A stretch of DNA of 64,000 nt from Emticicia sp. 21SJ11W-3. GTDB taxonomy: Bacteria > Bacteroidota > Bacteroidia > Cytophagales > Spirosomataceae. The stretch is from assembly GCF_024138715.1 (NCBI RefSeq), contig NZ_CP092074.1, forward strand, positions 4,216,001-4,280,000, read 5' to 3'. The translations under genes and the position numbers were made by a program. The number at the start of each line of letters is the position of its first letter. Position 1 is the stretch's first letter. The notes below the pieces were generated by a model. That model had not been told where the DNA came from and did no database searches. It was given only the letters and a program-made list of their open reading frames with translations. Positions 54,082-55,728 of this stretch are shown here, in pieces.

Positions 54082-55728
54082 ATGAAAAATCTTCCTGAGC
54101 AACTGGCTCATCCTTATACTTTTGCCCCCCAATTTAAAAAATCTGCTGTTTATTTCTGTATGGAATTTGCCATAGACCAGGCACTGAAAACCTATTCGGG
54201 TGGGCTTGGGTTTCTGGCGGGTTCTCACATGCGCAGTGCGTTTCAACTAAAACAAAACCTGATAGGCATAGGCATCTTGTGGAAGTATGGCTATTACGAC
54301 CAGGGGCGGAATACTGATAACAGCATGGCGGTGCAATTCCGCGAAAAAATATATAGTTTCATTAAAGACACAGGCATCCGTTTTCAGATAACCATTCAGA
54401 ACCGCCCTGTCTGGATAGCCGCCTATTTTCTCCCGCCTCAAACTTTCGGCACGGTACCCATGTTTTTCCTTACCAGCGATACTGACGGTAATGACCCCTG
54501 GGCGAGAGCCATTTCATACAGATTATATGACGCCGACGCCAATACAAAAATTGCGCAATGTATGATACTGGGCCTGGGTGGCATGAAATTGCTGGACGAA
54601 CTCAATTATGAGCCGGAAACTTACCACTTCAACGAGGCCCACGCCGTTTCGGGCATTTTTCATTTGTATAAAAAACTGGGCAATGCCGCAGAGGTAAAAA
54701 AAAGACTGGTGTTTACCACGCATACACCCGAAGAAGCTGGTAACGAAAAGCATGACATCAACCTGCTTGAAAGCATGAGCTTTTTTAACGGCATACCCAC
54801 CAATGAAGTCAGGAAAATTACAGGCATAAAAGATAACATTTTCAATCATTCTCTGGTAGCGCTTCGGTTGAGCAAAAAAGCCAACGGGGTGTCAAAACTT
54901 CATGGTGACGTGTCGCGTACGATGTGGAAAGGCTACGCAGGCGTTTGCGAAATTACCCATATAACCAATGCACAGAATAACCTTTACTGGGCCGATAAAA
55001 CGCTTGAAAAAGCCAGAAAAAAGGCCGATACAAAAACAATAGCAGACCGAAAAAAAGAGCTGAAGAATACCTTGTTTAAAACCGTGGCCGACCAGTGTGG
55101 CAAACTTTTCAAGCCCGAAGTACTCACTGTTGTCTGGACAAGGCGCTTTGCCGGATACAAACGCCCTGATTTACTGACCAGAGACCGCGAGCGTTTTGAA
55201 AGACTGATGAAAAACACTCGATACCCGATTCAGTTTATATGGGCGGGCAAACCTTACCCATTTGACGAAGGCGCCATCAATACATTTAACCATCTGTATT
55301 ATTTAAGTCATCTTTTTCCAAACATGGCTGTGCTGACGGGTTACGAACTGGCATTATCAAAGACTCTTAAAGACGGGGCCGATGTGTGGCTCAATACGCC
55401 TGTGGTAACGCGCGAGGCATCAGGTACCAGCGGTATGACTGCCGCCATGAACGGAGCGCTAAATTTGTCTACATTCGACGGCTGGATTTGCGAATTTGCT
55501 ACCAAACAGAATTCTTTTGTTGTTCCTGTTGCCCCGGGCTACCCCGAGCATGACAGAGATACACAAGATATCAATAACTTGTTTGATGCACTTGAGCAGC
55601 ATATTTTACCAATGTATTATGACAAACCAGCCGAATGGCAGCAAATGGTATGGCAAAGCATGCAAGACGTGAATGCCTTTTTTGATTCAGACAGAATGGC
55701 AACCGAATATTACGAAAAACTCTATTAG
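54082..55728 (+). CDS. Short GT35 (alpha-glucan phosphorylase-family) protein lacking the PLP lysine
   Basis: 548 residues, shorter than classical phosphorylases (over 700). The GT35 fold is recognised from TYSGGLGFLAGSHMRSAFQL near residue 35, VFTTHTPEEAGNEKHD near 210, VWTRRFAGYKRPDLL near 350 and REASGTSGMTAAMNGALNLS near 445. In phosphorylases the position after GxGM or SGM is the lysine that binds pyridoxal phosphate; here the codon at 55438-55440 is ACT, so residue 453 is Thr. The phosphate-site Arg and Lys (RRFAGYKRP) are kept. Either the cofactor is not used or the activity differs. Monocistronic with a strong terminator. Confidence 0.85.
   Translation: MKNLPEQLAHPYTFAPQFKKSAVYFCMEFAIDQALKTYSGGLGFLAGSHMRSAFQLKQNLIGIGILWKYGYYDQGRNTDNSMAVQFREKIYSFIKDTGIRFQITIQNRPVWIAAYFLPPQTFGTVPMFFLTSDTDGNDPWARAISYRLYDADANTKIAQCMILGLGGMKLLDELNYEPETYHFNEAHAVSGIFHLYKKLGNAAEVKKRLVFTTHTPEEAGNEKHDINLLESMSFFNGIPTNEVRKITGIKDNIFNHSLVALRLSKKANGVSKLHGDVSRTMWKGYAGVCEITHITNAQNNLYWADKTLEKARKKADTKTIADRKKELKNTLFKTVADQCGKLFKPEVLTVVWTRRFAGYKRPDLLTRDRERFERLMKNTRYPIQFIWAGKPYPFDEGAINTFNHLYYLSHLFPNMAVLTGYELALSKTLKDGADVWLNTPVVTREASGTSGMTAAMNGALNLSTFDGWICEFATKQNSFVVPVAPGYPEHDRDTQDINNLFDALEQHILPMYYDKPAEWQQMVWQSMQDVNAFFDSDRMATEYYEKLY

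Follow-up and report, generated by a model that had tools for sequence, protein, structure and literature searches.

The PLP Schiff-base lysine has been lost throughout a large, well-conserved clade of GT35 proteins in Bacteroidota, here called the T-clade, one member of which is encoded in the window (the whole analysed stretch of 64,000 nucleotides from Emticicia sp. 21SJ11W-3). From the sequence we infer both the activity and the cofactor of this protein: with a somewhat better than even chance it would be a working alpha-1,4-glucan (glycogen) phosphorylase whose pocket has been remodelled and no longer contains the PLP lysine. A covalently bound PLP is regarded as a defining feature of glycogen phosphorylases, and T-clade genes are entered as glgP in public records (seen for two plasmid-borne members). 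An active T-clade would show in what ways a GT-B enzyme can alter, relocate or give up its cofactor. It would also allow the idea that a nucleotide gave way to PLP when GT35 originated (PMC11046441) to be tested on natural proteins. Should the PLP lysine have moved, or should these proteins work without covalent PLP, a cofactor once thought fixed in GT35 was re-engineered in evolution; should the proteins be inactive as phosphorylases, glycogen breakdown is wrongly annotated in much of Bacteroidota.

The gene and the sites discussed below are located in the window as follows:

54082-55728, forward strand: open frame for a GT35-like protein of 548 aa (TIGR02094), compact, without the DUF3417 N-domain; T-clade member
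54199-54210, forward strand: GGLG glycine loop, residues 40-43
54964-54990, forward strand: TNAQNNLYW, residues 295-303, the T-clade version of TNG(I/V)...W
55141-55164, forward strand: RRFAGYKR, residues 354-361, with the phosphate-site basic residues R354, R355 and K360 (K534, R535 and K540 of MalP)
55357-55359, forward strand: codon of Ser426, invariant in the T-clade
55369-55371, forward strand: codon of Lys430, candidate replacement lysine, invariant in the T-clade (94/94)
55414-55440, forward strand: EASGTSGMT, residues 445-453, an otherwise intact EASGTxxMK
55438-55440, forward strand: codon ACT, Thr453, at the site of the PLP Schiff-base lysine (K646 of MalP, by alignment)

In profile searches the ORF product matched TIGR02094 ('alpha-glucan family phosphorylase') with 416 bits against a cut-off of 191.7 and PF00343 (Phosphorylase) with 60.9 against a cut-off of 27. 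Tests for PF05693 (GT3) and for the Pfam GT4 domain were negative, PF00343 being the only match at E<=1, and TIGR02095 (GlgA) gave no match at E<=1. The gene is the only one with a Phosphorylase domain in the host genome (5.18 Mb, one contig). In the alignment, Thr453 coincides with the Schiff-base lysine of E. coli MalP and GlgP, which in MalP is K646 (PMC11046441), and EASGTxxMK accordingly ends in Thr in place of the PLP lysine. A role of K534 and K540 of MalP in the phosphate site is described in the same review (PMC11046441). An earlier note on this DNA had placed a threonine at the PLP lysine and had called the rest of the motif and the phosphate-site residues intact. Both statements hold, the latter for essentially all T-clade members.

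The further suggestion of the earlier note, that proteins with Thr might form a separate clade, was borne out by alignment and tree. Among 136 close relatives with the motif, the PLP-lysine site is occupied by Thr in 130 and by Ser in 6, with Lys in none, against Lys in 34 of the 34 other Bacteroidota TIGR02094 proteins checked; when 392 genomes were scanned with a degenerate DNA pattern encoding EASGTSG-x-x-A-x-MNG, every match had Lys, Thr or Ser there. Because of these two counts, Thr453 is neither chance nor error. The earlier note named a sequencing error in this codon as what would refute the finding; an error of sequencing or assembly is excluded by the 136 independent relatives and has a negligible probability. 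Relatives at 53-83% identity to the ORF product occur throughout Spirosomataceae and also in other Bacteroidota orders. The Thr/Ser proteins are monophyletic with support 100, and the branch leading to them is long (0.95 substitutions per site). The tree, which has a distant outgroup, sets them beside all Lys-bearing TIGR02094 proteins with support 100, a placement that is not to be trusted since the long branch and the far outgroup together make long-branch attraction possible for the rooting of the T-clade. The clade is under strong purifying selection, with dN/dS of about 0.04-0.11 where dS could be estimated. As it is a separate clade and all its members have Thr or Ser, a changed cofactor chemistry is likely. 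A search of the literature available for the analysis yielded no paper on the T-clade.

Residues were compared between 94 T-clade rows and 27 Lys-bearing Bacteroidota rows; the comparison was extended to MalP and GlgP of E. coli and to an extra set of 14 Lys-bearing proteins, whose hosts belong to other phyla or to Hymenobacter. Kept over the 94 T-clade rows are GGLG, N296, W303, R355, Y359, K360, K390, E445, S447, G448, T449 and G451; R354 is kept apart from a few rows with Lys, and Tyr421 is replaced by His in 5 of the 94. Equivalents of GP K568, R569, K574, E672, S674, T676 and N484 are present as R354 (Lys in a few), R355, K360, E445, S447, T449 and N296, respectively. The phosphate-site residues R354/R355/K360 and E445-S447-G448-T449-G451 are intact in essentially all T-clade members, and the clade's signature is repeated at about 40 further loci. 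Other positions are invariant in a way peculiar to the T-clade, K430 and S426 among them. K430 is found in 94/94 T-clade rows, whereas Lys-bearing phosphorylases have mainly Val or Ile, also Thr and never Lys at this position. S426 is likewise invariant, in contrast to Ala in 27/27 Lys-bearing Bacteroidota relatives; the exceptions at 426 in the extra Lys-bearing set are Ser in Chroococcidiopsis and Gly in Methylophaga thalassica. S426, K430 and T/S453 always occur together, and all Lys-bearing proteins compared, MalP and GlgP included, combine Ala (rarely Ser or Gly), Val, Ile or Thr, and Lys. In the TNG(I/V)...W region, Gly297 has become Ala or Ser and Val298 has become Gln, with N296 and W303 retained; the changed pocket-side residues outside the three linked sites are 297, 298, 391, 392, 48, 67 and 73. 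Moving one lysine would call for fewer changes, a point against the phosphorylase reading.

That the protein is a glucan-binding paralogue without catalysis, or with a regulatory role, we hold to be improbable. Such a paralogue would agree with the absence of a cofactor lysine thought essential and with the fact that glycogen genes do not lie beside most copies, but all other active-site signature residues checked are invariant across orders. The earlier note had suggested a non-phosphorolytic, regulatory or glucan-binding relative; the invariance of catalytic, glucose- and phosphate-site residues and the strong purifying selection speak against that suggestion.

The AlphaFold2 model of the ORF product (pLDDT 94.6, pTM 0.93) has the phosphorylase fold. 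Among solved structures it is closest to 9l6i, the glycogen phosphorylase of Segatella copri (Z 35.0, 2.1 A, 533 residues, 30% identity), followed by MalP with Z 33.2. In the model, the helix of residues 423-432 carries K430 and S426, and a single strand connects it to the helix that carries T453 (449-456). K430, invariant in the clade, may be the replacement PLP lysine and is thus a candidate for the other pocket lysine that the earlier note had named as a refuting condition. In a working phosphorylase, the conserved residues R354/R355/K360 and E445-T449-G451 would most likely form the site where inorganic phosphate is used, and glucose-1-phosphate would be released from glycogen made by a GT3 or GT5 synthase and branching enzyme. 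For the cofactor, three options can be proposed: PLP could be carried by K430 as a moved Schiff-base lysine, it could be bound without a covalent bond, or it could be absent, as in the GT4 trehalose phosphorylases, which have the same GT-B fold and are not known to use PLP. These belong to a different family and act on a different substrate, and no sequence match to them was found. A GT35 glycogen phosphorylase whose PLP lysine has moved to the neighbouring helix (K430), or which has no covalent PLP, we put at slightly below an even chance. GT4 retaining phosphorylases are a precedent, in another family, for retaining phosphorolysis on the GT-B fold (PMC8950772). One point against an active phosphorylase is that PLP is held essential for GT35 phosphorolysis (PMC11046441).

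With Lys-bearing TIGR02094 proteins such as 9l6i, the T-clade shares fold, glycine loop, phosphate-site residues, the EASGTSG motif and genomic niche, but the Lys-bearing proteins have Lys at 453, Val or Ile at 430 and Ala at 426, and most of them, unlike the T-clade, carry DUF3417 and are longer in their central and C-terminal regions. Compact Lys-bearing TIGR02094 proteins do exist on plasmid islands (Microvirga, Indioceanicola, Simkania, Methylophaga pinxianii); like T-clade proteins they lack DUF3417, measuring 545-575 aa, and they have similar neighbours (GAPDH-II, DUF1622, GlgX, phosphoglucomutase, phosphoketolase), but unlike them they have without exception retained the PLP lysine, and none has K430. 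Compactness as a consequence of lysine loss is ruled out by these forms in other phyla; the small size therefore arose independently. The E. coli GT-B phosphorylases MalP and GlgP (TIGR02093) are about 20% identical to the ORF product; equivalents of K534, R535, K540 and E638 are kept in the T-clade and Lys646/662 is Thr in the product.

The main rival to a phosphorylase is an alpha-glucan synthase on the GT35 scaffold, one that would have given up PLP and would house the nucleotide of ADP-, UDP- or GDP-glucose in the vacated pocket. We regard it as unlikely. Nucleotide-sugar GT-B enzymes have a role for the second Glu of EX7E; position 453, being E445+8, falls at the place of this residue, which is Glu in the GT3 protein of the host genome. 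GlgA (GT5), itself of GT-B fold (2qzs), has no lysine at the 453 position, and T-clade residues 420-435 (GYELALSKTLKDGADV) resemble a segment of E. coli GlgA (GYHEAFSHRIMGGADV). The glgA profile is matched by three T-forms out of five along most of the protein (E 1e-10 to 3e-13) and by a single Lys-form out of five (E 1e-6, N-terminal part); the missing phosphorylase insertions may alone raise this score, however, and the best sampled clade member reaches 49.3 bits with glgA (TIGR02095), far below the cut-off of 328.45. A starch synthase with ADP (starch synthase IV) fits the model nearly as well as the best phosphorylase (Z 31.6 vs 35.0), and E. coli glycogen synthase with ADP (2qzs) gives Z 31.3, both over fewer residues. 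The glycine loop differs from that of GlgA and is phosphorylase-like, Y-S-G-G-L-G; its Tyr38 stands in the position that the Lys of KTGGL occupies in GlgA. A synthase would also accord with the proposal, made in a review (PMC11046441), that a nucleotide was exchanged for PLP in the origin of GT35.

Gene neighbourhoods bear on both the phosphorylase and its rivals. The window copy is flanked by proA upstream and an RND efflux pair downstream; glycogen genes are adjacent neither at this locus nor beside most relatives, which is a point against the phosphorylase reading. Several accessory T-clade copies nevertheless have telling neighbours. Four (L239, L242, L243, L246) adjoin acetate kinase and phosphoketolase, one from another family (L198) has phosphoketolase nearby without acetate kinase, one (L069) adjoins GlgX (1016 bits, GlgX equivalog), and a copy on a Pontibacter plasmid (L227) adjoins type II GAPDH and DUF1622. 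Lys-bearing GlgP genes have acetate kinase and phosphoketolase as neighbours in Methylophaga thalassica, phosphoketolase in Criblamydia and Leptolyngbya, GAPDH-II and phosphoglucomutase on an Indioceanicola plasmid, and GlgX on a Microvirga plasmid. Since Thr-form and Lys-bearing GlgP have neighbours in common, the Thr form stands where an ordinary phosphorylase would otherwise be; a neighbouring GlgX or phosphoketolase/acetate kinase pair indicates breakdown, against a synthase.

On plasmids (L217-L234), compact glgP recurs in distant phyla with GAPDH-II, DUF1622, GlgX, phosphoketolase and acetate kinase, and further with CBS or universal stress proteins and P-type ATPases; this set looks like a travelling energy or stress island. 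Four Runella-type genomes (L235-L238) have a second Thr-form copy in a conserved neighbourhood with SDR and MBL-fold proteins, with YihY near it in three of the four; the Runella rosea record is a plasmid. Directly downstream of this copy lies a 146-aa gene of the pyridoxamine-oxidase family, which we discarded as evidence for PLP because the domain name covers many FMN proteins.

Glycogen genes were surveyed in 57 Bacteroidia genomes, 34 with a Thr/Ser form, 3 with a Lys form and 20 without a GT35 gene. A canonical TIGR02093 phosphorylase was found above cut-off in none of the 57, and none combined a Thr/Ser form with a Lys form. In almost every genome that carries it, the Thr/Ser form is the sole GT35 member, so that there is no active paralogue for it to regulate; this argues against a non-catalytic paralogue and, together with the copies beside GlgX, phosphoketolase/acetate kinase or GAPDH-II/DUF1622, against the non-phosphorolytic role that had been suggested. 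A branching enzyme (bacterial or eukaryote-type) is present in 37/37 genomes with a Thr/Ser or Lys form versus about 14/20 without GT35 (Fisher p about 0.001, only indicative because the genomes are related), a point for the phosphorylase reading. The synthase partner is GT3 in most Cytophagales, including the host genome, where it is a separate gene (C1:4599208-4600998), and GT5 with GlgC in most genomes of other families. That most genomes with the T form in this sample already have GT5 or GT3, and the rest a GT4-GH133 pair, is a further point against a synthase; the T-clade as the missing synthase of Cytophagales is weakened by the GT3 of the host genome and the GT4-GH133 pair of G225, G260 and G342. 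The absence of a GH133 debranching enzyme from the host genome is a point against the phosphorylase reading. The three genomes of genus g39 (G225, G260, G342) have neither GT3 nor GT5, and in them a GT4 gene adjoins the GH133 debranching enzyme; the pair at G225:C2:772062-774429 is a candidate alternative glycogen pathway. Outside the window, a 290-aa frame at G000:C1:1814174-1814842 (within L192) matches only the N-terminal half of GT5 GlgA. An N-terminal GlgA fragment of this sort occurs in nearly every Bacteroidia genome sampled, and a conserved GlgA-GT5 fragment in Bacteroidetes is mentioned in a review (PMC11046441).
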